A stretch of 64,000 nt of DNA from contig CM049306.1 of NCBI GenBank assembly GCA_026874595.1, positions 58,100,019 to 58,164,018 on the forward strand, read 5' to 3'. Below the pieces are notes generated by a model. That model searched no databases and had not been told where the DNA came from. It saw nothing but the letters and a program-made list of their open reading frames with translations. A program made the translations under genes and the position numbers. Shown here piece by piece: positions 32 to 49,006 of the stretch. Every line of letters starts with the position of its first letter. Position 1 is the stretch's first letter. The stretch comes from Sipunculus nudus. Taxonomy: Eukaryota > Annelida > Sipuncula > Golfingiida > Sipunculidae.

Positions 32-3000
32 CTGAAAAAATAATAATAACAGGATTATGTATGTACATGTATTCCCTTATTTCACCAGATAAATGAACCA
101 AAAGTCAACAGACTGGTACGACTCTTCAAGACAAAAGGAATATCTACACAGTTACTCTGATTAATGCACAAGTTAATTTACAAATATCAATACATAGGTC
201 AGAGTTTTTCTCAATAATTGCCCCATACCTTCAACTGCTCAATGGTTTTCCCTGGCTTTCTAATCTAGTAAAGCTGAATAGTAAAAATATTTATGTTTGT
301 ATATTGAAAATTTGATTTTCAAATATTTTTTAAACTTAGTTTCCTTTTCTTTATTCAAAATGCTTGCTATGCCAGTGTTTCAGTACTGTTAATCTAATCC
401 ACTTGACATACACAAGCATTTAGTCCCCTAATACACTTTTATTTAGAGTAAAACTGATGAGTTGATCCTGAAACCACTACATCAAAATTAAGACAGAATG
501 GAGTATATTAAGGGCTGACTCATCAAGAATAAGAACCATTTTTTTTACTCAAAGCCTAAATCTAAATATTAATCTGACACTAAAACAAAACATTATTACA
601 GTGGAAGAAAACAGTGTCAGTTTGTTCTTTTAGTAGGATGTTCTCATTCAAAATCATTACTGTATCCAAAGTAATAATTACTGTGATGAAAACTCTCTGT
701 CAACAATGATGATCCACTGACCATCGGTTTAGGCGGCACAGAAATGGACTGATAATATTTTCATCATTATAATTTCTTGTTTTGATAGTTTATTAAGGAA
801 TTTATTTGAAACCTTACAGATTAAAGAGTTCATTAATGAAAACTGGTCTTGGGACATCACTTTATCAAGTGCAAGCTACTGGGTGTTAATTTTGTACAGA
901 ACTGTTTCAATTTGCTCTCTGCTGGAAAAGTTCCAATTTGATCTATACTTTTCCTATTGGAACAATAAAAATCACTAAAAAATTACATATATATATATAT
1001 ATACATTAGATAAATACCCACCTCTACAGAATGTTTGTAAAGCCTGATGTCCTCAATCTTAAACTCTTTCCATACAGGGGACGGCTGTCTAAGAATAAAC
1101 CTCATACCCACTATATTTGTCAGCTCAAATCTCAGCTGCAAAGAACAAAGAACATGTTAAATAATTAACACAAACTGGGGATGGTTGCCTTAGAATAAAC
1201 CTCAGACCCACCATATTGGTCAGCTCAAGCCTCAGCTGTAGAGAAAACATAAAATGTTCAATTCCATGCATACACAAACTGGGGATGGTTGCCTTAGACT
1301 AAGCTTCCACTCAAAGCTCAGCTGAAGTGAAAACAAATGTTAAATACCATACACAAACTTGGGATAGTTGCCGCAGAATAGACCTCAGATTCACTAAAAA
1401 GGGCAGCTCAAACCTCAGCTATAGAGAACAAACAAGGGGGCCATGGGTCACTGTGCTCAGCTGAAGTTGACCTTGAAGGTAAAAAAATTAAAATAATATC
1501 AAATGGAGAAAAAGTCTGAGAGGAAAAGGTAATATAGGCCATGGCTGGTTGACATGATTGGTTTGTATTGATGTGTAAGAAATTGTTGCAAATAATATTT
1601 TTTTACCAAAGCATGCATCTCCTAATGTTAAAATTAAAGCAGGTGACCAGTTTGTGAACATAAGATGTATATTATAACCATGATCATTGGTTGACTTTTT
1701 GATAAATTGTTGACAGTCCGATAGTTTACACATTTGTTAAATTGGATCTTTTTTTAATAATATATATTATTTGATATATGTTTTTTTTTATTTGATAAAA
1801 TCTATACATTTGAAATACAACTCATGTCCCCAGTCCACAGGTGCAAGGACTTGGGGGGGGGGGGGGGGGGTAGGAATGGAATGATGGGTGGTAACAATAG
1901 GATTTTCACTTAATTCAACCATGCTTACAGGATAAAGAAGTTCATTCACAATTACTTTATATTTAAACAAGTGACCCATGGGTCATGAAGCTCAGCTGAC
2001 TGGGAAGAGATTCGCAAAAGGAAATTTTATCATCTGAAAGGTAGTATATTCCCATTCAACTGAAGCATCAAACAGATTAACCAACAGGCCAAAATTGTGT
2101 CTGTATTTATATATCTCAAAAATAGAGAAAAAATGTGTAAACTTTAAAAAAATACAGGTGGCTCCACCAGTGTGCAGAAACTAATAAAAACACTTAATGG
2201 TCAATATCCATGCAAATAATCATAGTGATCTCTGCATTAGTTGTTCAGATACTCCAGCTTTTGTATCAAATTTTTTATTATTCTGAGGGATACTTTGGAG
2301 TCCTATAGCTTGAAGGATATGGGCAACAGAGACCTAATTTCAGGTTTCCACAGACACTTTTCATGGGCCTCCTTGCAACACAAGAATGAAGATTTTAGGT
2401 CCAGTTGTCACAATTTGTGCCACGTTAACAGATGACAGCATTGTTAAAGGTCTCAAAAATAGAGAAAAAAATTCGTAAAAAATCGAAAAATACAGGTGGC
2501 GCCAAAAATCATAACCATCAGTGATGTAGTTAATGAGATATTGAAGTTTTTGTATGAAATTTTTTACTATTCTTGGGGGTACTTTGGGGCCAAATAGCTC
2601 AAAGGATATGAGTAACAAAGACCTTATTTCTGGTTTCCATGGAGACTTTTCATAGGTATCTCACTTTGTCAAGAATGAAGATTCTAGGTCCAGTCTATAC
2701 GATTTGTGCCCTGTTAACAGATGTTCACATTTTTAAAGGTCTCAAAAATAGAGAAAACAATTTGAAAAGAATCGAAAATTACAGGTGGCGCCACCAGTCT
2801 GTAGAAACTGATGAAACATCTCATGATCAATATGTATGCCAAAAATCATGACCATCAGTGATGTAGTTAATGAAATATTGAAGTTTTTGTATGAAATTTT
2901 TTACTATTCTGGGGGGTACTTTGGGGCCCAATAGCTCAAAGGATTTGGGTAACAGAGACCTAATCTCTGGTTTCCAAGGAGATTTTTTATCGACCTCTCA

Positions 3001-6500: not shown

Positions 6501-9500
6501 CCAAAGTAATCTTGGACAGAGAAGTATTGCAAAGATTGCAAAAAAAAAAAAAAACTCACTGAATATACTTCATCCAACATTTTAACTCAAAGACAATAGA
6601 TCTTTTAATCTTAATGTTAAGAACTTTTGAATATATTTTGATAACTTCATCTTGAAAGAGTGAGTAAATCTGACCTGTTTCTTTGTGATGGTGAAGTAAT
6701 CCTCACTCCCAGTCTCACAGTGGGCATCTGGCATCAGCTGCTTCCTCTTCAGGCATGTCTGCCATTTTGGATCAACTGCAAGATGAATGGTTTTTATTTA
6801 CAGTGACACATATAACCAGACTATTAAAACTATGTCATCTTGTTGAGTAGGTAGGTAAAAATGCACAACTGAAATGGTTCAAGAACCGCAAGAATCTGCT
6901 GATAAAAAATAAGTTGTCTCAGGAGCCTAAACTAAGTCTGACACAAGTGATTTAATTGTGCGAATCATTTGTTATATATCAAATATGTTGAAAAATATGT
7001 AAAAAAAAACAAAGAAGGGATGTGATTTAATGGTAAATCATATTCTTTTAAATTAATTTTTTTCTGGTGCAAATTTTCTATCTATGTAAGTATAATAATA
7101 GAGATGACAATTATAAACATGTTAATTAACCTGAGTGATATCATAATCACAAGCTTATGATTGGACATGATAGAAACACAAACTACAAATCCCAATAAAC
7201 CTAATTACTAAGTTCTATATACTGCATGACTGGCTAGTCCAGTAAGCTGCAGTTGGTATCCTCTTAAGTCTTGTCATAGACAGGGATTTGTATCAGAAAT
7301 ATTTTCTCTGAATTCTTTGGGGACAGTCATGGAGAAGGACTTGCATGTGGGATGTTTTCTCTGAATAAGGATTTGTATGCGAGACACTTTCTCTGAACTC
7401 TTCTTGGGGGACATTAATGGACAAGGATTTACATGTGGGATACTTTCTCTGAACTCCTCTTGGAGGATAGCCATGTCCAGGGAGTTGTGTGGGGGGATGC
7501 CTGATTATCCCACATGAGTTAGAGGTGTTTTGCAACATGTGTCTGAGATTTTAAAGGTGTTTATTTCCTTCCTGACATTGGTATGTGGTAAACAAATATT
7601 TAAGAGATTAAAATAACATACTTATAGATCCCAAAATCAGTGTCCAGTCCTTGAATCAAATCATTACAGATATCTAAAAGAGGGCTAATTTACAATGGGA
7701 AGCACAAATTATAGAATTTTCCAAAATGTCAGAAGGAGCTAGGCTGCACCCTCATTTATGCATCCTTGGAAAACCTATGTATTCAGGATGGATGTAAGAA
7801 ATTTGAAAATGTCTAATTCTTCAAACCTCTGTCCAGTTATTATGAAACTAGTATTTTCTTTGTTTATTTACTCATTAAAGTATCCCATTAGTTTTTGAGA
7901 TGAACAAACCAATTTATTCACTCTACACTTAGCATTATCATTCTTATATTTTCACTTCTTACTTCTTTCAGGCAGTGAAAAAATAAAAGAATAGAAGTTT
8001 TCATGCCAAGAAATTGTGAAGTGCAAGTTTTTTTCAAAAGAAAAAGGCATTTGATTCTAGCAGTGATTTGTTCTAAAACTTGAATTTCTGAAGAAAACTA
8101 TAGAATTAGTATGTTAGATAATACTGTAAAAGTAATAATTAAATTTATAATACAGCAGAAAAAGTCTCTCATCATAATTTCAGGATGAAATATGAAAAAT
8201 GGACATGGAACAATATTGAGACAAAATGTCAACAAGATAAAATAGGGGCAGATGCAAATGATGAAATTATTTGTTTCATGCAAACCTGCCTGAAGTATAG
8301 TTTGGTAACATTATAAAGTGTGCATGACACACATAGGTCAAGCTTTATTCAGTGAGTGGCTCTATTGAAAGTTACATAAAGATACCTACAATTCCAATTA
8401 AAAAGCTAGCCAATTTAAAAGCAGCTTGAACAATCCTTGATATATCAGCTGTCTGCATATGATAATGGCAAGTGATCTGAAGGCTGTGAAAGCAGCATCC
8501 AAGAGCACATGTGATGATATTTTTATTGATAATATCAGGGATGTCGGCTCCACTGATGAAATATTATCCAGGTTCTTTTTAATTTTTTTCTCATGATGAG
8601 AGGAACAGGTTTTATAGGAACTTCATTCTGAGAAGGCAAAAAGCATTTATAAACATTTTCTTTCTGCCTGAAATTTGACCGCTTTGTTTAAGCAATATTT
8701 ACATACACAAACCTGTCAGGTAAAAATAATGATCAGTATGATAAGTATGTCTTATGTTATTTCATTATTACCGATATTACAATATTATCTCACAGGTGTC
8801 ATATGGGTCATGATGCTCAGCTGAATGATATATCATAGTATACTGATTATACAGGCTTAACAGGCCTTCCTTCATGTTGCCTTCATTTAGGTGTGTAATT
8901 TATTCTATAAAGGCCATATAGGAAATAACTTGACATAATTTAAATAAATCATTTGTATACTAGGCAAAATATAAAGAAAATGGAAAAAATATAAGCTTAA
9001 TAAAAAAAATATAAGCTTTTATCTTTTATCTAAAAATTCATATACTGTTCAGATTTTCAGCTGATCAATGTTTCTTTAGCTTAAAAGCCACCAATGTTTG
9101 GAACTTAGAAAATATCTAACCCTTGCATCACTTAAAACGAATTAAAAACATTTTTGGCAGGCTTTTTGTCATTAAAATGTATTTGCTTTATCGCAAGTGA
9201 ATTAGCATCTCAATAAATACATGTGTGAAAGAGAAATGAAGGGGGCACAGGGAGAGGTATAGGGGTTAGGTTTTCCTTCAAGAAATTGTCCTCTGTAAGT
9301 GGGTATGATCACGTTCCTGTCTTAGTGCTGTAAGTCTGACTATCAGAGATAATGGTGCTATATAAAAACTACATATTATTATTATTATTATTATTATAAT
9401 TACTAATATTATTATTATTATCAACTGTATAGTTGCTTAAAATGTTCTAATGCACAAGGCTCTTTAAAAATAAATTGAAAATAACTTGAAAAAATGAGGT

Positions 9501-12500
9501 CAATGACCAGGTTTGAAAAAAAAGTTAAACATGAACTTGCCCCATCATACACAGGCTCATAACAATAACAATATTTACTAAACATGGTCTGGTCAGTCAA
9601 CCTATTGATGTGATCACAGCTGTTAAGTTATAGTAAAAAAAAATATTAAAATGCAAATTAATTCCTTTCAATATAGAAATTATCCATATAGTTTCCCTAA
9701 AAGAAAGACCTTAATAAAGCAATAATCCTTTTAAACACATATGATGCAGTTATATTCACACATAAAAAATATCATAATACAAACATGGTTAATCAAAAGA
9801 TTTAGTCAAAATAATGAAATAATTAGTACAGCTGTGGAGTCCTAAGATGTGCTTTGATGTTAAATTTATAAAAACCAGGAGCCACCACCAGTAAAGATAT
9901 CTTATTCAAATATCTTTTTTAGATCAAGTCTGGAATCTGCAAAAACAACACAATTACGATTATTAAAAAATCTCTGTATTATTAAGGGAAGATAGGAATC
10001 ATAGGAATCATGCAGTTCTGATGAAAAACTAAGCATGCTAAGAAGAGCAAATTCAGTCCTTATTAACAAGAAAATCAGACTGAGGTGATCGTTTTCCTCC
10101 ACCTGGGAAGCACTCACCTTTCCCTTTTCTTATCCCTATGAAGATGCAATGTGAATAAAAAAACAAGTCAACATCTCATATAGAATAACTCTGCTCAAGG
10201 CCATAGAAATCTCTTTCTCCTTTTAGAAAAATATGTTAAAACTTTTGTGAAACAAAAAAATGTTATAATATAAAAAATTCTTGATACATTATGTATTCCA
10301 TTTTATATACAAGTGTAAAAAAATATGAAAACCTGGGAAGGAATACTCTCACCATGTGATAACCTGAAAACAATTTTTTAAAACTGATATACAAGCAGTA
10401 AATGATTCATATGATAAAATTATTATCATTTTTAGATGTACAAAACTCCAAAATATTTCTACTCTAGAAATTTTTATAACAAAAAAGAAGCAATGATGTT
10501 CACTTTATCAGTGGAATAAATCATGAACTCTTGCAGTGAAACTGTCAACCACTGCCACCAAAAATTTGTTATATACTGAGAGTGCAGATTCAAGTCCAAC
10601 CTTAGGAATTACTATTGGTTTTCAAACATGGCACCAAAGTTAAGATTCCAAAGCCATGCTGACAGCATTTTTCAAACACCATTCAAACTCTCTGATCTTT
10701 TAAATTGTATCTGCATGCTCATTAAAACTTTTAGTTAGTTACAAATTTGTTTTGGGGCAATGGCAGGGGGTTTACGGGAGTAGAGGTTGTCATAGCAATA
10801 CCTAGCAATCATGATTGACTGCCCCATAGTCATACTATCAAGCCTCTGGCAGCTATGCCTTAAGAGACCTTGACTCATCAAGCTGTTCAAGTGTCTAGTT
10901 CATGAATAATGAACAAGGCAACTGAACCGATCAAATGACTCACATTTATTTTACGTGCTTATCAGAGCATGTCTGGTGGGATTTTAAAGGTTCAGCATTG
11001 CTGGGAAGGGCATCTAGAATCTGATCAATCAAATAAAGCCATATAAACCTGTTCCATTCCTGTTGCATGTGCTCTTGTCCAGATGGCATGTGATCAGTGA
11101 ATTGTTTAAAATTTTTTAATTGGATTTGATTGGTAGTTGTGAAATTTGCTCAAAAATTTGTAGGCTTGATAATTATTTATTAAATAGTTGCATGAGGAGC
11201 AAGGTCTCTGAATAAATAGGTGCCAGAGGCTTGATAATATGAAAATAGTCAGCTATAAAATATCATCATAGAATGTAATAAACCAGTTTCTAAGGGTGTG
11301 ACATCCTCTGTGCACAGGCCTACATGTCTATAAGTATGCCAACATGTTGGTACTTTGTTGACAATGTTTCATGAAATATTCACCTGGCAAGATAAGTAAG
11401 ATGAATAATGGGGTCATTATATAACTGACTGCTCAGCATGTCTTATTTACAAAGCTTTGTTTTAGTATTTAAGACTTTCATTTAAGATCTTCTTGCACAC
11501 ATCACAAGCCTGACCAAAAAAGAGGACTGTTTAGTGTCTGCTAAGAAAGTAATTAGGTAGTTACTTATAAGTAAGTAGTTGTATGAATGTGCCTGCACAA
11601 CCTTTGACTAGATCACAAGGATGTAACAGCAAAGAACATAAAGTTACTTCTGTCTCTGTAAATATGAGCTTAAGTTAACATTGATCACCAAGATCTACAC
11701 TGGAACATTAGTGAGGGATTAATATTAGATTATCAGGTATTCAACTTTACACAGTCAAATTTTCCAGATACAATATTTTTTTTTTAAACCACAAGAACTT
11801 TGATACAAAAATTCAATTCAATTATGATAAGAAAAAAATTGACAGCAGGATGGTCAGAGAAATCTCCAGAAGCAAACATTCATATGTCTTTCTGTTTGAT
11901 CTTGGAAAATAAAAGCCAAGAACATGTTCTAATTTGCACTATATCTAAAATAATATTAAACAAGCTTAAGGTAGAAAATAGATTTTGAATTTAATACACT
12001 TAAATGACCATATGGTATCTTTGTCAATTAACTTTCAAAAACTTATAACCAATAGTGCCTAAATGAATGAGCTCAATTCACCAGTCAGACATTTAAACAC
12101 AAGCTTTACAGATGCTTGCACTCACTAAGTGTGCAAGAAATACATATCATACCTTAAGTTCTGACAGGGGTTGATTGGTTCAAGCATTATTCTGCACAGA
12201 GTACTCACCATCTGGGCGTGATTCTTTAAACTGCACTCTGACAGACAACCAGGCAGTGTAGAAGTTCTTGAAGTGAATCTCACCAACCTTCAAAGACAAT
12301 TCTGATTGAAATGAGCAGCCAGCTCTTATTATGGCACATATGCTACATTCATCAAGTATATAATATAGAGTACATGAAGAAATCCTTCTCTAATTTGTTG
12401 ATGAGGATGCCGTCATCCCAAGAGCATTCCTATGGGTTTTACTTGGAGAATATGGGTTTATTGATCACTGTCACATGGTCTTTGTGTGTGTCTGTCAGGA

Positions 12501-13396
12501 TGGTTACAAGTAGTAGTTGAGAACAGTTAGAAAGATAAGTTTATATTACAACCTAAAAATATTTCATTTAAAATGTGATGCCAGAAGCTGTCTATAATGA
12601 TTAAAAATACACTATTTGATTACAAGTGTTGTTCATCATTTTATACATCAGCTCAGCCATGTCACACCATCAAACACCCTCTGCCGATAAATTCCCACCT
12701 TGACATTGACCTTGGAGTACTTTTCTCTTGTATTTCTGTGCCCTTTCCATACCCTGAATCATTTATATTTACTTTAAAGACTGTCAGACTGTTCCATAAT
12801 TTAGCTTTCTGCATGAAGTTCTTAACTAAATCAAAACACAGGCTGACTTTTCCTGACTTTCACAAATATTCTAAAAATTCCATGAGTTTTGATGAAATTC
12901 CCTGATATTTCATATATTCTGAAAATAATTTTCCCTGATTTTTTCCTGACCCTGTGATATTTTGAACCATTTTGGAAGCATGCTGGAAATGATTATCACC
13001 TCTAGTTGGACCCTTGGTCATGATTTTTCCTGGGTAAGATACACATGTGAGAAGTGGTTTGGCGAATACAAGCCCTGCACTAAATGACATCACAGTTCAG
13101 TCTGCTTAATGGCTGCTATAGACTAAAGTGTACGCGTACAGTTGAAAAAAAAATGATTTGTGAAGTGGAAAATATAGTAAATATATAATATAAGAAATGT
13201 AGATGTACATAAAAATCTTCATTTATAGCCTGCTGACAAGACTCAATAAACTTACCTCTACAAAGTAGACATTTGGAAAAGTGACGTCAATAATTGAGCA
13301 GCCTGTGCTGAAATCTGAGCGTTGATCACCTATCTTGATCCCGACGGCAGGTTTGATTGTACAGTTAATTGGCTGTGGTCCTGCTTCAGCTGCCAT
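1..13396 (-). CDS. NICN1: Nicolin-1 gene (five exons seen, 3' end outside window)
   Basis: This is the best-supported gene of the window. Nicolin-1 is known as a subunit of the tubulin polyglutamylase complex that works with TTLL1 to add glutamate chains to tubulin tails on axonal and ciliary microtubules; it is non-catalytic. Five exons joined on the minus strand give about 155 residues. They align nearly gap-free with my recollection of vertebrate nicolin-1: DVTFP near residue 37, an F-K-N-aromatic-Y stretch at the start of exon 2, a KW-TCL segment in exon 3, and ILRQPSP in exon 4. All introns are GT-AG (introns 1 to 4 about 968, 5433, 5539 and 990 bp) with phases 0, 1, 0, 0. The vertebrate protein is about 213 aa, so some 55-60 residues lie beyond position 1. 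No signal peptide or membrane segment is visible. Family identity rests on recognition, not on a search. Confidence 0.93.
1022..1135 (-). CDS. NICN1: NICN1 coding exon 4
   Basis: This exon has 114 bp, exactly 38 codons, phase 0 at both ends. It carries the most conserved block of nicolin-1, GMRFILRQPSPVW, followed by an EDIRLYKH segment equivalent to the vertebrate EELQIY block. The acceptor is strong (gttctttgcag) and the donor is GAG|GTGGGT. The spacing from the end of exon 3 to ILRQPSP is identical to the vertebrate protein. The intron just upstream holds three partial copies of this exon. Confidence 0.95.
1170..1418 (-). pseudogene. Three partial tandem copies of NICN1 exon 4 in intron 3
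   Basis: Reading on the minus strand, the 5' half of exon 4 with its acceptor and preceding pyrimidine tract recurs at about 1352-1418, 1275-1321 and 1170-1235. All three keep a usable AG acceptor and an open phase-0 frame starting LR or LS. The copy nearest exon 4 still reads RFILRQPSPV, the middle copy has lost about six codons in frame, and the farthest is most diverged (RSILRQLSQV). All three end at the same place after the PSPV codons, where the sequence becomes GTTTGTGT. They therefore lack the second half of the exon and its donor. They look like decaying tandem duplicates rather than functional alternative exons. Confidence 0.75.
1976..3123. mobile_element. Nested ~1.15-kb repeat with short inverted ends
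   Basis: It begins CATGGGTCATGAAGCTCAGCTGAC and ends GTCAGCTGAGCT, so AGCTCAGCTGAC and its reverse complement form a 12-bp terminal inverted repeat. It lies inside the longer repeat that uses similar ends. A clear target duplication was not found. Inside is a threefold tandem array (see 2111-3060) followed by a GACGGATAGACAGACAGACG tail. It is a non-autonomous element; no transposase is visible. Confidence 0.55.
2111..3060. repeat. Three ~300-bp tandem units with GGTGGCGCC motif
   Basis: Each unit runs through 'tctcaaaaatagagaaaa', an acaggtggcgcca-type motif (2155, 2495 and 2785), 'gatgtagttaatgaaatatt', 'tactttggggcc', 'gacctaatttctggtttcca' and 'gatttgtgccaggttaac'. Units start near 2111, 2450 and 2745. 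They are diverged, so the array is old. Confidence 0.7.
5420..5700 (-). repeat. tRNA-derived SINE, family A, copy 1
   Basis: On the minus strand the head has an A box (TAGCTCAGGGGTAGAGC, 5674-5690) and a B box (GAGTTTGAATCTCAG, 5634-5648) at tRNA-like spacing. These are followed by a conserved GGCCCCCACCCAGGGT core. The same head and core occur at 17866 and 49265. It is not a functional tRNA because the acceptor stem does not pair. It lies in intron 3 of the nicolin gene. Confidence 0.8.
6675..6775 (-). CDS. NICN1: NICN1 coding exon 3
   Basis: This exon has 101 bp, enters in phase 1 (completing a Val or Gly codon split across the intron) and leaves in phase 0. It encodes a segment with KWQTCLKRKQLMPDAH, corresponding to the KW-TCL-(R/K)-LMPDPH region of vertebrate nicolin-1, followed by an acidic stretch and TKKQ. 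The borders are ttgcag|TT and CAG|GTCAGA. The donor is weaker than the others in the gene. Confidence 0.93.
7265..7495. repeat. Degenerate ~60-bp minisatellite, 3-4 units
   Basis: The string 'ggatttgtatg..' followed by 'actttctctgaactcttctt' and 'ggggacagtcat' recurs about every 55-70 bp across this stretch in nicolin intron 2. Units differ by substitutions and one is shortened. Confidence 0.7.
9376..9421. repeat. (ATT)n microsatellite
   Basis: Imperfect ATT trinucleotide tract with one interruption (ataattactaat), in nicolin intron 2. Confidence 0.85.
10831..11241. mobile_element. MITE-like inverted repeat, ~0.41 kb
   Basis: The left arm 10831-10875 (CATACTATCAAGCCTCTGGC...) pairs with the right arm 11199-11241, whose reverse complement starts CATATTATCAAGCCTCTGGC. 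The arms are about 43-45 bp with scattered mismatches and enclose about 320 bp of AT-rich non-coding sequence. The similarity continues weakly outward (tagtca on both sides). No clear target duplication was identified. It sits in nicolin intron 2. Confidence 0.65.
12209..12287 (-). CDS. NICN1: NICN1 coding exon 2
   Basis: This exon has 79 bp and enters in phase 0 from exon 1. It begins VGEIHFKNFY, equivalent to the IIFKNYY stretch of vertebrate nicolin-1, and keeps exact spacing to the DVTFP motif of exon 1. The donor is CAGATG|GTGAGT and leaves phase 1. The acceptor used here is ctttgaag|GTTGG. A competing AG (caatcag) lies 14 bases upstream; its use would add 14 nt and bring a TGA into frame at once, which argues for the downstream site. 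Confidence 0.92.
12835..12960. repeat. TTCCCTGA-rich dispersed repeat fragment
   Basis: The stretch repeats tttcctgactttc, aattccctgata, ttttccctgatt and ttttcctgaccc. This resembles a widespread 'ttccctgatttt' repeat of invertebrate genomes, recognised from memory only. It accounts for the open frames on both strands here, inside nicolin intron 1. Confidence 0.35.
13256..13396 (-). CDS. NICN1: NICN1 coding exon 1 (start codon, residues 1-47)
   Basis: This exon starts at the ATG whose first base is 13396 (context gaggATGG) and gives 47 codons ending in a phase-0 donor, GAG|GTAAGT. An in-frame TGA lies seven codons upstream, so this is the first usable ATG of the frame. The peptide begins MAAEAGPQ and reaches IIDVTFPNV, which matches the conserved N-terminal strand of nicolin-1. 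A possible acceptor (ttcag) lies just upstream of the ATG, so the 5' UTR may itself be spliced. No TATA box or CpG-rich promoter is evident in the few hundred bases upstream. Confidence 0.9.
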
Positions 13397-20242: not shown

Positions 20243-21395
20243 AGACATTTCTTGGCACCGCTGGTGCCAAAGTATCGCCAGACAAATGAGGTTTTGTGAT
20301 ATTTTGTTGATATAATGTGATGTATTTGTATTTTAGCAATGAATGTGAGAAACATTTGTACAAAATATAGGAATATTTAAAGTGAAGGCAATTGTTATGT
20401 AAAAGGTTATGTATAAATAGAAGTATATATTTAATGATGTATTGAGTTGTATATGTATGTTTGGAGTAACTTGTTTGAGAAATAAACTGCATTCCAAAAT
20501 ATCCAACATTTGAAAAAAAAATTAAATTAAAAAAAAAATTAAATTAAATTAAATTTTAAAATTAAATTTAAAATTAAATATACCTCATTCCATAAACCAT
20601 ATCTATATACATGCATAACATGAAAGAAATCTGTCCATTACTGTTTGACTTATAATGCTCACAGTATATACTGTCAAGTGGCAATGATGGGGTATTCAAA
20701 GGCGCAAAAAACAAGAAAAGGACAACAGGTGGTGCCACCTATCTTCTGCAAAAGACAAAACTATCCAAGATCTTCCGTCAACTTGATTTTTGGACCAATC
20801 CATGCATCCCTTTTTAAGATATTCATGATTTTTTGTGATTTTCACCATATATGGTAATATTCAAGGTCAAAGCCACTCTCAAAGGAAAGGTCATGACCCC
20901 AATTTTAATATACATCATCCCATAGCCGATACCTATGTACATGCATAATATTAAAGAAATCTGTCAATCAGTTTTTGACTTGTGATGCTAAAAGTACTGT
21001 CAAGTGGCAATGATGGGGGTATTAAACGGCACAAAAACAAGAAAAGGATACTAGGTGGCACGACCAGTTTCCGGTACATGACATCACTATCCAAGATCTT
21101 TGTCCAACTTGATTTTTGGATAAATCCATGAAAGATTTCTTGAGATATTTAAGAATTTGTGTGATTTTCCCCAAAAATGGATCTATTCAAGGTCAAGGTC
21201 ACTCTCCTAGTTGAGGTCATGACCCCATTTTAAATAGGCTTCGTCCTCTCACCTATATCTATAAATGTGTCAAGTTTGAAAAAGATCCTTGAAATATTTT
21301 TTGAGTTATTGTGTCCAAAAGAAATCTCTGCGGCGGCGGCGGCGGCGCAACCGTGCCTAAACCATAGTATCTCCAGACTATGTCTGGCGATACAA
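20243..21395. mobile_element. Hairpin-ended interspersed repeat, copy 2
   Basis: The left end carries TTGGCACC-gct-GGTGCCAA, a perfect 8-bp stem, then agtatcgccagaca. The right end at 21367-21393 folds as GTATC-t-CCAGAC-tat-GTCTGG-c-GATAC. The interior has two ~329-bp tandem units (about 20643-20970 and 20972-21235) with 'caagtggcaatgatggg', a GGTGGYRCSACC motif, 'aacttgatttttgga' and 'ggtcatgacccc'. An (AAATT)n tract lies at 20511-20582 and a GGC-repeat at 21329-21348. It is homologous to 18462-19130 at its right side. Confidence 0.65.
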
Positions 21396-22831: not shown

Positions 22832-23553
22832 CCCATCTGACAGATATTGTGGGACCGACATGGCTAGGTCCCATCTGACAGATATTGTGGGACCGACATG
22901 GCTAGGTCCCATCTGACAGATATTGTGGGACCGACATGGCTAGGTCCCATCTGACAGATATTGTGGGACCGACATGGCTAGGTCCCATCTGACAGATATT
23001 GTGGGACCGACATGGCTAGGTCCCATCTGACAGATATTGTGGGACCGACATGGCTAGGTCCCATCTGACAGATATTGTGGGACCGACATGGCTAGGTCCC
23101 ATCTGACAGATATTGTGGGACCGACATGGCTAGGTCCCATCTGACAGATATTGTGGGACCGACATGGCTAGGTCCCATCTGACAGATATTGTGGGACCGA
23201 CATGGCTAGGTCCCATCTGACAGATATTGTGGGACCGACATGGCTAGGTCCCATCTGACAGATATTGTGGGACCGACATGGCTAGGTCCCATCTGACAGA
23301 TATTGTGGGACCGACATGGCTAGGTCCCATCTGACAGATATTGTGGGACCGACATGGCTAGGTCCCATCTGACAGATATTGTGGGACCGACATGGCTAGG
23401 TCCCATCTGACAGATATTGTGGGACTGACATGGCTAGGTCCCATCTGACAGATATTGTGGGACCGACATGGCTAGGTCCCATCTGACAGATATTGTGGGA
23501 CCGACATGGCTAGGTCCCATCTGACAGATATTGTGGGACCGACATGGCTAGGT
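22832..23553. repeat. 38-bp satellite array, 19 exact units
   Basis: The array is 722 bp, exactly 19 x 38 bp. The unit starts CCCATCTGACAGATATTGTG and continues to the next CCC. As read, the only difference between units is C to T at 23426. Each unit contains TGGGACC and GGTCCCA ten bases apart, a 7-bp inverted repeat able to form a hairpin. Since 38 is not a multiple of 3, the open frames here are coincidental. Near identity means recent expansion or strong homogenisation. Copy number could be collapsed in an assembly. Confidence 0.97.
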
Positions 23554-25520: not shown

Positions 25521-27629
25521 AATAAATGAACAGAGAGGCAAGCTTTTGGTAATCAGGGAAAAAATATTCTTTCCTAAATGTGAAAGGAATCTCCTCAGAT
25601 ACAGGAAGGACTTTAGTTCATTATCTTTTTATTTGCAGGCCACAAACTACAGCCAAATATATCCAATTTAATCATAAACAATGTCCTACATCTCACAATG
25701 TTGGATTAACAAAAGGACTATACACATTTCAGGAGGAACCTCTGCACAAACTCAAAATCCCTGGTCACCTTGTTTTCTTCAAGACATATAAAGGAAATCA
25801 GAGGACATAATATGCATCAGGAACAGTCCTGAAGTTTATTCCTTCCTTTGGATAAATGGCCCACTTTATGTCTTAAAAAACTATGATGCAGCTGTCAAAA
25901 TGCACCAGTAACCTCCATAAATCAGGGATGCACCTCTCCTTTAGGTTAATGATTTCTAGGTCCTGCCAGGTTTGCAAATTCTGTGGCATCAAAACTGCTC
26001 AGGATTTAAAAAAGAGCAAGGCAGCAGAAAATTACAGACAATCAGTACTGGTTGTAGCAAGGTGGTGACAGGAGAAATTCAATATACAGAAAAGATGACA
26101 AGGTGGTACAAGTGTGTTTGTTGTTAATAATATGCTTGACAGGTGGTGACATCTGTAGGCAATTTTAAATGTTGTCAATAAAACAAAATGAAACGGATGA
26201 ACGACTATTCTTTTCCTGGAACAAAATAAAAGTTCTGGAGTTAAGGTGGATCTTGATGTATTATGTATATGATACTAAAAACTCCATGAAAACAAACATT
26301 TCCTGGCTTCAGCACTATGTACACCTAATTAATACAGTCATAGAACCTGGAACCCTATTCCTCCACTCAGTCTGGGCACTTCTGTGATGCGTCCAAAAAT
26401 ACCACACTTGATATACATATATAATATGTGAGTGAAATGTTTCAGGTGTGCTTTCTGGAGATGAAAAAAAGTTGCAGTACCTTGTGTTTTCACTCATCCT
26501 TGTTGAACATCTATTATATACACGGCAAAAACACTCTATCATGGTAGAGGCAGCTGTGCTAGCTCTCCTCGACAAATAAAAGTCACCAGCTGCACAGAGT
26601 TGGCCATTCAGAATTGTTCTTCATATTCATAGCCTGCATGTATACAACACATCTGCTTTTTATATCGTCTGGTTTCTTTGAGGAGATTAAGAAGTGGTAA
26701 AGGCTGCCGGCTGTAGCAATAGATTGCCTATATATGGTGAATGCTGGTAGGCATCAAATCACTGTAATCGTTGGCTTGTTGTTGTAATGTATTAAACAGT
26801 AATGTTAATACATGGACTGTGTATCATCTGGCAAATAGTGAAATGAACTGATTCATGATACAGCATGGCAATATGCAAATCAGTTTGCAAACATTCTGTC
26901 CTACATAATACACAGCAAGAAATAATCACTGACCCCTAGCTTTCAAGCAGCTCCTTGGACACAGTTAACTACTGGCTGCCCATTATTAGATTAAGTTCAG
27001 TATATTAAGAGATTTTTTAAATTCTTTGCAGTTTCTATATCTGTTAGTTTAGATAAAGTTTCTCAAAAGATTTGCAAACTAGCAAATGTTGCAGTGCATG
27101 ATTGAATCAGAATCAGACCTCAAACAAAGATCATGGACTTTCAAGAGTTTAGAAGTTTGTTACACCCATATTAATAATGTTGCCATGAGTAGTTAATCAG
27201 CAAATTATCAGCAATTTCATTAGCAATGGTCAGTGAATAAGATCATTATAATACGTGTACATAAATTAATCGGCATCAATATGTAGCAGTATGTAGCAGA
27301 GTTCTTCACAGACCCTACAAGAATGCCACATTTTATTGCCTTGAGTTTAGTCAGTGAAATGTTTTATGAATAAACTGTGTAATTTAAAGCCACTTTTAGC
27401 CATGTATAGACCTTATGACATGAAGGTATTATCCTTATAAATCTTATACCAGTATGAACTCGTTTACATGATATATTGAATGACAGTTGCTCATTTGATA
27501 TACTGAATATTTGATCACAAATTGCTTTTAAAGGCACCTCATTAAGCCCCAAGCAGGGAGTGAATGCAGGGATCATAATTTATTTAAAGGGTGCTTTTCT
27601 GATATCTGACACCTTTAAATAAAAAAAAG
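25517..27629. other. Non-coding stretch, no gene seen
   Basis: Short open frames only; none has convincing splice borders or a recognisable protein motif. Confidence 0.4.
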
Positions 27630-27744
27630 GACTCATGGGTCACGGCGCTCAGCTGATTGTGACAGTTATAACTGCATCACCATAGATTTTTTAAAGTTGC
27701 AATAAAAATACTATCCTCAGTGCTCAGGAACTAGAGCTCTATGA

Positions 27745-37170: not shown

Positions 37171-37508
37171 TTGTCATGTGCGCCATGGCAGCGCTAGGTT
37201 AAAAGTCCTTAGCGCTCGGTTGTACCAAGACGTTTGAATTAAGTATGTAAGAACACTATACCCATGTAAGAGCAGGGTAGCGCTCGGTAAAAAGTCCCTA
37301 GCGCTCGGTAGCCCCACGTGGGTTATAGCATTGCCTGGGGTGAACCAAGGGCAGCGCTCGGTAAAGAGACCGAGCGCTCGGTAGCCCCAGGCGGGTCAGA
37401 GCAATGCCTGGTATGAATCCAGGGTAGCGCTCGGTAAAAAGTCCTACCGAGCGCTAGCGCTCGGTAGCGCTCGGTACGCTAGGTAGCGCTCGGTAAAAAG
37501 ACCGACCC
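37171..37508 (-). repeat. Right inverted arm of foldback element
   Basis: About 338 bp, the reverse complement of the left arm plus one additional spacer module (the one with 'cccacgtggggctaccga' in reverse orientation). Confidence 0.85.
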
Positions 37509-46310: not shown

Positions 46311-49006
46311 TCCAGGTACTGTACACTTTATTTATATACTTGTATTGATTTACTGTTGTACTGTTGTTATACCGTAAAATTGTATTGATTTAGTTTGTTG
46401 TAATGTTAGAATTTCACGCTGCCTAGTGTTACAGAATCTGATTTCTTTTATCTCCATTTCAAAATTTATGTTCGTCACGATTACGTGATCTGTTGATATT
46501 AGGTTCCGTAACAATGTATGCCCCTGAACTTGCTGAACCTGCATGCATAACTGACATTCATTGAACCATCCAGCCAAAAGCAACAAATTGCTCATTTTTA
46601 TGTTCGCAATCAAAACCAGCTTGCATAATAATGAACTTATCGCTGTCCATGAGAAAGCTTTCTCAAACTGCAGGTGGGCGCAAACAGCCTTCATGATGCC
46701 TTTGTGTCTGACATTCCAGACATTAATTCCCTGACAATTGCAGTCCGTTGACAGCCTGTCAGTAGTTGGCTCCTTAATAATCCCTGTGGATGTGTTTAAA
46801 GCTGCTCTTGATAAAGCTAATTCTGTTAGTTTATCAACAGCTACATTCTTAACAATCTTAATGTCTTTGCATAAAGCAAAACTGTTAAAGAAAGAAATCG
46901 GTATGGCAGACCATGGGTCAAGAAACCAGTGATTACATCTTTTGTTCAGACCGGTTGATTAAATTGTGGGGCGGCTCTCAACGTGGAGCCAGCGAAATGT
47001 ATTCAGATTTTGTCTGCACGATCATATCAATATCAATATCTCCAAGGGTTGTCAATGGACTTCATCGAAAGTTTGTGTAAGGGTTGACCACATTCAAAAA
47101 AGGAATGATTAAATTTTGGGACAGGTCGATAAAATACTTGTCTGTTTGTTCGTACAATATTTCACGGGAGAAAAGGTAAGCAGATGTATAGGCCTTTAGC
47201 CAAATGAAACTTGGGGTGGCGTGGTTAATTTTCGGGCATTTTAGTATTTGCGTGCATGGCCTCGCTCATTTTCCTCTTCGGGCCGCTTTGGTCACACAGT
47301 ACCTTCAGTTACAATGGCGTTGGCGGATGGGTGCGTTCTCCGAGTGTTTTTAGTTGTTTATACAATTGAGTTACAAAATATTTATGTCTATTGTGTGCTC
47401 ATATTCATATGAAGTTTAACAAAGGTCTCAACGTCTCTAATTCGATTTATTTTCGGTAAATAGCAATATTTCATATACGAGACAATGTAAAAATATATGT
47501 ACCAGTCAGCAAATGTTCAATAATATATTTTATTATCCGGTTTAAAGGTGTTAATGTATAGAATACGTCAAGATCTGTGTTAGATAATACTTCTTCCTAC
47601 TCAAGGTTTTTAAGAAAAGGGTTAAACACCATTTAATGTCTTAAAATATAAATTCTTGATTTAATATTACACAAAGCTTTCAACTATTCACGCACCTTTA
47701 CTATATACTGAACAATGTTTCCTGTTTGCTCTGAATAATATATGTAATGTAAATAATGATAGGTGCATACACCACAATAAGGTCGTACATCCTTTGATCA
47801 ATGGCATCAACTGTATATTTGGCCGAAAGTATTGTAATGACTCTTACCAAGTTTGTGCTATGTTTGGTCAATAAAATTCAAGTTAAAAGTATGCGGCGTG
47901 TCAGAGAACAGATGCCGGGCGCCTTCAATCTTTTTAGCAAATGAGCTGATAAATAAGTGACATCCAATTATGTAAAGTTCAAACTGAAGAATAACCAACA
48001 TTGGCACGGTACGCTATCTGGATGTAAATGATGCAGATGCTCTAGTACGCTATGGATTGCTAGATATGAAACCCGATAGACGACGCGCTGATTAAAGCTC
48101 CAAATTTAAACGAACACCCGGCTCCCAGCACTTGTCACATCTTACCCGTGCACAAACTAATAGACCACAGGTTGTAAATTATGCAGATACCCTGTTAGCG
48201 GCGGATTCAAGTTAAGAGTACTTAATCCCTCCCGAGGAAACCCAGCTAAGAACATCATCACACGGCTGCCACTAGAATGCAGGGACAGTGTATGGCATGT
48301 ACCGGACCACTACCATTACCGGCAACATCAATGGCCCATATATAACACAAGTCCTCCACAACATCATCAAAGGCTATGCAGGACACACATTTCCAATAAA
48401 GACTCAAAGGGCTCATTCAAATCATGTTCCTACCCTGGACTCGTACCTGTCAAGCATACAAACAAGTAGTATGTGGTTCCAAAATTATTGTTTTATTTTC
48501 AGTTTATTTCACATTTTTAGTGTAGCCCTTTAAATTTTACTCCAGTTCTGTTCAGCAATGGGGACCCGCAATACCCTTGCGCGACTTTAGTGACGCAACT
48601 TTATGTTTTTTGTCGAATTGTGTATGTGTGTGCTTGTGACAGCGGAAGCGTTTCATGGATCTTGATAACGCACGGGACGTTAAAAAGAGGAGATCTAGAA
48701 GTGACTGAAATTTACTTAACTTATTAACTCATAACAAACACCACACTGGCAAATTATTATCCCATATTTCATTTAAATTATTTCATTTCTTCAAGACTGG
48801 GGTTGGTGGCATTATCGCCTGAGGGACCAATTAAACTCCATTCACTGTAGCAATTACGGAGGTTAATTGGTGTAAGAGAACAAGATCCTTCCAGCCCCGG
48901 GAGAACATTCGTTTCGCTCGATATCTTATTTTGCATTCATTAATTTTTAATGGTGGCCTCTCGTCAGGGATAACGAATGGAATTAGATGCTGGAAAACAT
49001 CAAAAT
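46311..49006. other. Non-coding stretch with weak open frames
   Basis: A plus-strand frame (46738-46932) and an overlapping minus frame (46350-46694) have no recognised motif. An ATG in good context (acaATGGCG, 47314) opens a 31-codon frame after a GC-richer patch. None is called as a gene. Confidence 0.35.

Follow-up and report, generated by a model that had tools for sequence, protein, structure and literature searches.

Tandem exon duplication is a well-known phenomenon, and it includes mutually exclusive exons (a 2002 survey, cited in an excerpt of PMC9013439). Full-exon duplications are reported in about 4-7% of vertebrate genes; genes with partial, inter-boundary or intronic duplications, possible degenerate exons, are significantly more numerous (excerpt of PMC12343006). 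In the oyster alternative oxidase gene, exon 10 is duplicated and expressed (excerpt of PMC5589949).

The array described here, in the gene NICN1, belongs to the partial, degenerate kind. Like the tandem exon duplications treated in PMC9013439, it repeats homologous exon sequence beside the exon and keeps the acceptors; unlike them, as far as the excerpt describes them, its copies comprise only the acceptor and the 5' part of the exon, have no donor and look decayed. As in the partial, inter-boundary and intronic classes of Exonize (PMC12343006), exon sequence recurs in the neighbouring intron of its own gene, but NICN1 differs from these classes, as excerpted, in having three successive half-copies with an acceptor each and a hint of constraint at silent sites. 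With the oyster exon 10 it shares a within-gene tandem exon duplication whose final copy is the conserved one; in the oyster, however, both copies are expressed, and the resulting proteins are equal in size (PMC5589949). The NICN1 exon-4 array was not found among the literature matches listed, including those naming nicolin.

The NICN1 gene

The window, i.e. the whole 64-kb stretch of DNA that was analysed, carries on its minus strand four visible exons of NICN1 (nicolin-1), which we take to encode a subunit of the tubulin polyglutamylase complex. A query protein presumed to be human NICN1 gave minus-strand tblastn matches at 13369-13268, 12314-12231, 6767-6672 and 1138-1034, with E-values of 8e-4, 6e-4, 6e-6 and 4e-6 for exons 1 to 4 and identities of 40-50% over the four exons. 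As the exon 3-4 translation matched 0 Pfam families at E 1, and 0 PDB matches were found for NICN1 at E 0.01, the gene name rests on the similarity to this presumed query and on the coherent exon order. The exons are:

13256-13396, minus strand: NICN1 exon 1, coding part from the ATG, with phase-0 donor GAG/GTAAGT; from tblastn, sequence and frame, ends counted by hand
12209-12287, minus strand: NICN1 exon 2, phase 0 to phase 1; from tblastn, ends picked by splice phase and counted by hand
6675-6775, minus strand: NICN1 exon 3, donor CAG/GTCAGA, ending in phase 0; from tblastn, first base counted by hand
1022-1135, minus strand: true NICN1 exon 4, 114 nt or 38 codons, acceptor CAG, donor GAG/GTGGGT

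The four exons are in order and phase-consistent, and they join in frame at consensus splice sites when the joins are worked out by hand. The visible part of the gene appears intact, and later exons would fall outside the window edge. The original prediction had named exon 4, the minus strand, copy acceptors at 1235, 1321 and 1418 and the end of exon 3 at 6675, and all of these are right, the positions to the base. Its description of exon 4 as the most conserved finds no clear support: among the four exons its E-value is the best, yet its identity is the lowest, at 40% against 43-50% for the others.

Three window frames of at least 130 codons gave no Pfam match above cut-off and one weak match at E 0.094, and the whole window gave 0 Rfam matches at gathering scores. 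A search for a NICN1 outgroup in collections of viral contigs and prokaryote genomes led to 0 confirmed sequences from 11 pattern matches in one scan and 0 from 173 in another.

Structure of the exon-4 array

Directly upstream of exon 4 lie three tandem copies (A, B and C) of its 3' splice site and first ~63 nt. The first bases behind the acceptors are 1135 for the true exon and 1235, 1321 and 1418 for copies A, B and C. The array had been placed at 1170-1418, which is the right location, but its true span is slightly larger, about 1136-1436:

1136-1235, minus strand: copy A unit, 100 nt; 63 nt of exon-4-like sequence (1173-1235, LRLELTNMVGLRFILRQPSPV), then the junction and the 3' splice site of the true exon 4
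1236-1321, minus strand: copy B unit, 86 nt; 45 nt of exon-4-like sequence (1277-1321) with an 18-nt in-frame deletion, then the 3' splice site of copy A
1322-1418, minus strand: copy C unit, 97 nt; 63 nt of exon-4-like sequence (1356-1418, LRFELPFLVNLRSILRQLSQV), then the 3' splice site of copy B
1419-1436, minus strand: pyrimidine tract and AG (TATAG) of copy C, overlapping the end of a dispersed repeat
1430-1475, minus strand: dispersed repeat end, the upstream limit of the array; resembles 1951-2005, 8776-8827 and 27613-27663

In each copy the exon-like part runs into a junction common to the copies, GTTTGTGT, which is followed by the pyrimidine tract of the next unit. The phase-0 frame is open over the homologous 63, 45 and 63 nt of A, B and C, and each copy keeps a pyrimidine tract and AG. 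These features had been foreseen, as had the single in-frame deletion, which is the 18 nt missing from the copy at 1321, and the presence of three extra copies upstream in the order of transcription, which the unit matches from copy A confirm. The 101-nt unit of copy A is 80% identical to that of the true exon (E 6e-19), 80% to copy C (E 9e-17) and 69% to copy B (E 3e-8); the remaining reported unit pairs match less well (E up to 3e-5), and identities over all reported pairs are 69-80%. Between the true exon 4 unit and copy B no match was reported at E 0.05 or better, and the 64-kb window holds no further copies at E 0.05. With the exon-4 peptide as tblastn query, copy A was matched at E 7e-9 and copy C at E 0.002, and copy B merely over seven residues (E 0.53).

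The homology of exon 4 to its adjoining intron is thus significant, as in a tandem duplication, and Tandem Repeats Finder also calls the array (1077-1302, period 100, score 291). Within the first 2000 bases, the minus strand has the motif AGCTGAG at six sites, namely 1135, 1235, 1321, 1418, 1460 and 1995, of which 1460 and 1995 sit inside dispersed-repeat ends. The exon-4 donor GAG/GTGGGT is absent from all three copies, which are therefore not full-exon duplicates. This absence had been predicted; copy A does, however, carry an internal donor-like ATG/GTGGGT, with a score of 3.78.

Silent and replacement changes

Codons were compared over 21 positions; the 22nd codon, which touches the junction, was left out, and six codons of copy B are gaps. 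Between the true exon 4 and the consensus of the copies (the stem) there are 8 silent changes and 1 replacement. From their own consensus (the tips), copies A, B and C differ by 0, 0.5 and 2 silent and by 2, 5.5 and 9 replacement changes, in total ~2.5 silent and ~16.5 replacement, which suggests that the copies' own changes are those of unconstrained DNA. The contrast between stem and tips gives a Fisher p of 0.00017, for which the tip counts of 2.5 and 16.5 were set to 2 and 16. At a neutral expectation of 25-28% silent changes, the chance of at least 8 of 9 being silent is 0.0001-0.0003. The estimate from the four aligned copies agrees, on the tips, with the decay that had been raised as one possibility, but the 8:1 pattern on the stem had been missed. 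In this outgroup-free comparison of 21 codons, coding constraint on the duplicates is not seen on the tips and is suggested on the stem.

The 8:1 contrast alone would be expected if a constrained true exon carried all nine changes. Such an assignment is disfavoured by the time involved, to judge from the divergence at silent sites (0.48 from the true exon to A, 0.04 from A to B) and in the intron part, where the true unit differs from A at 14/34 and from B at 10/31 positions and A differs from B at 6/31. A codon model with a clock and a star tree prefers a constrained stem with an omega of 0.09-0.11 over a neutral stem (exon only, 2dlnL 5.67, p 0.017; with intron, 2dlnL 6.34, p 0.012); the intron rows were cut by hand from the alignment and comprise 34 columns, without copy C and the first bases after the junction. 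In simulations, a stem with at most one replacement was seen in 73/3814 accepted neutral runs (1.9%) and in 1439/5370 runs at an omega of 0.1 (27%), where runs were accepted when totals were similar and consensus ties were broken towards the true exon. Neutral settings with a short stem fit better than this pooled figure, with at most one replacement on the stem in 8/46 accepted runs at t 0.12, the shortest stem, and in 15/229 at t 0.18, both with a 10% stem. Behind the result for the stem are 21 codons and nine changes, analysed with a star tree and a clock; it suggests, but does not prove, that the copies descend from an exon 4 that was itself under selection, either an alternative exon or a paralogue.

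Our preferred explanation, to which we give roughly even weight, is that the copies are decaying relics, most likely non-functional now, whose ancestor was probably a working version of exon 4. NICN1 exon 4 would have been duplicated in tandem from its 3' splice site into its first part and later amplified to three extra units. As the differences that separate the ancestor from exon 4 are nearly all silent, it was probably not dead at the start; it may have belonged to a functional exon 4, either an alternative exon or a paralogue, before the loss of its 3' half and its amplification. That the copies are relics is suggested by their having changed mostly at amino-acid sites since their common ancestor.

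A plain neutral partial duplication without a functional past is a credible competitor, if not one we would back. The eight silent changes would then all lie on the branch of the true exon, and the copies would look young through recent duplication or conversion among themselves. This needs no extra steps, fits the neutral-like changes of the copies and the frequency of tandem arrays in this window, and is compatible with the short-stem simulations; against it stand the rarity of stems with at most one replacement in the pooled neutral runs, the likelihood ratio tests and the intron divergence between true exon and copies compared with that between A and B. A functional past would be needless if the true exon had simply changed faster at silent sites.

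More speculatively, and in our view rather improbably, the array could be what is left of a second exon 4 that was once under selection, NICN1 having long had two versions, either mutually exclusive or with one of them acquired from a paralogue by exchange. One version would then have lost its 3' half and been amplified, while dying, as a minisatellite of splice site plus half exon. If the ancestor was selected, the locus would be a readable fossil of alternative-exon loss, in which a constrained and a neutral phase can be separated; if it was not, the array is an ordinary decaying tandem duplication.

The copies may also reach further into exon 4, through its 21-nt tail. Ungapped, the tail matches B at 15/21 (P 0.0002), C at 13/21 (P 0.009) and A at 12/21 positions (P 0.06), and in B and C it would follow a 6-nt insert. 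As this comparison is significant for B and C yet the local alignment is weak (P 0.14 for B, 0.05 for C and 0.76 for A), the tail homology of the junction segment is left undecided. If real, the repeated unit would consist almost entirely of exon sequence and pyrimidine tract, the TTTAAC motif would be of exon origin, and the stem would have 9 silent and 2 replacement changes and a 6-nt insert (9/11 silent, P 0.0002, read by hand). A displaced exon-4 tail was also sought elsewhere in the window, where the best other match, near 46876 (E 0.046), was not convincing.

Splice signals and neighbouring repeats

With splice-site frequency matrices, the true acceptor scores 7.2 and those of A, B and C score 5.1, 5.1 and 3.9, which places them in the top 0.4%, 1.5%, 1.5% and 3.0% of the 3404 AGs of the strand. 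On the corresponding donor matrix the real donors of exons 3 and 4 reach 2.98 and 4.90, and the junction donors (GTTTGT) in the copies are poor, at -3.9 for A and B and -1.7 for C. Of the four acceptors, the true one and that of copy B are preceded by a branch-like TTAAC; copy A offers no more than TTTAT at -18, and YTNAY is lacking over 60 nt in copy C. The acceptor at 1135, with the best score of the four and as the sole one with a complete exon and donor behind it, is predicted to be used, and the copies would be intronic debris that is spliced out with the intron. The weaker acceptors, the missing exon-4 donor, the lack of TTAAC in two of three copies and the replacement-dominated changes make simple decay, which the original prediction had raised as an alternative, the best fit.

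It is unlikely that the copies act as working decoy acceptors. Exon 3 joined to a copy would run into stops, leading to nonsense-mediated decay and less NICN1, or to a truncated protein. The rank of each copy's AG is compatible with such a role, as is the read-through to the exon-4 donor, in which the exons, extended to 214, 300 and 397 nt, contain stops in every case, after 36 (A), 29 (B) and 35 (C) codons; however, the true acceptor is better, no copy has a complete exon and donor of its own, and the changes among the copies look unconstrained. Still less do we expect phase-0 mini-exons, either 24 nt of copy A up to ATG/GTGGGT or cassettes of 60, 42 and 60 nt from A, B and C up to GTTTGT. 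Lengths and phases would fit, and the donor-like site, in phase 0 after 24 nt, scores higher than the exon-3 donor, but one good GT out of 29 listed across the array and exon 4 is unremarkable, and the poor junction donors and replacement-dominated changes also argue against such exons. An assembly artefact fusing divergent haplotypes merits hardly any credence: the window comes from a single assembly, which may be imperfect, but copy A and the true exon show a silent divergence of ~0.5 and the units have diverged from one another, unlike what an allelic false duplication is expected to give.

Tandem arrays with a score of at least 80 fill 19 rows in the 64 kb, corresponding to 17 distinct loci, 11 of them with units of at least 20 nt. 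With such arrays common in the window, the birth of the exon-4 array needs no special cause. Copy C starts where the dispersed repeat ends. At its four sites (1430-1475, 1951-2005, 8776-8827 and 27613-27663) the repeat end reads CAGCTGAGC followed by RTGACCCAT. The repeat end and the exon-4 acceptor have the 8-mer CAGCTGAG in common, which may be coincidence. The intron that holds the array also contains, further upstream in the direction of transcription, three copies of a 163-nt repeat at 2212-3000 (74% and 90% to the reference) at spacings of 289 and 337 nt. Further away, a 38-nt unit is repeated 19 times at 22832-23553 with 99% matches, a recent satellite-like array, a 326-nt unit occurs twice at 20577-21233 (78% matches), and the 73-nt tandem unit at 37274-37442 contains the palindrome TACCGAGCGCTCGGTA.
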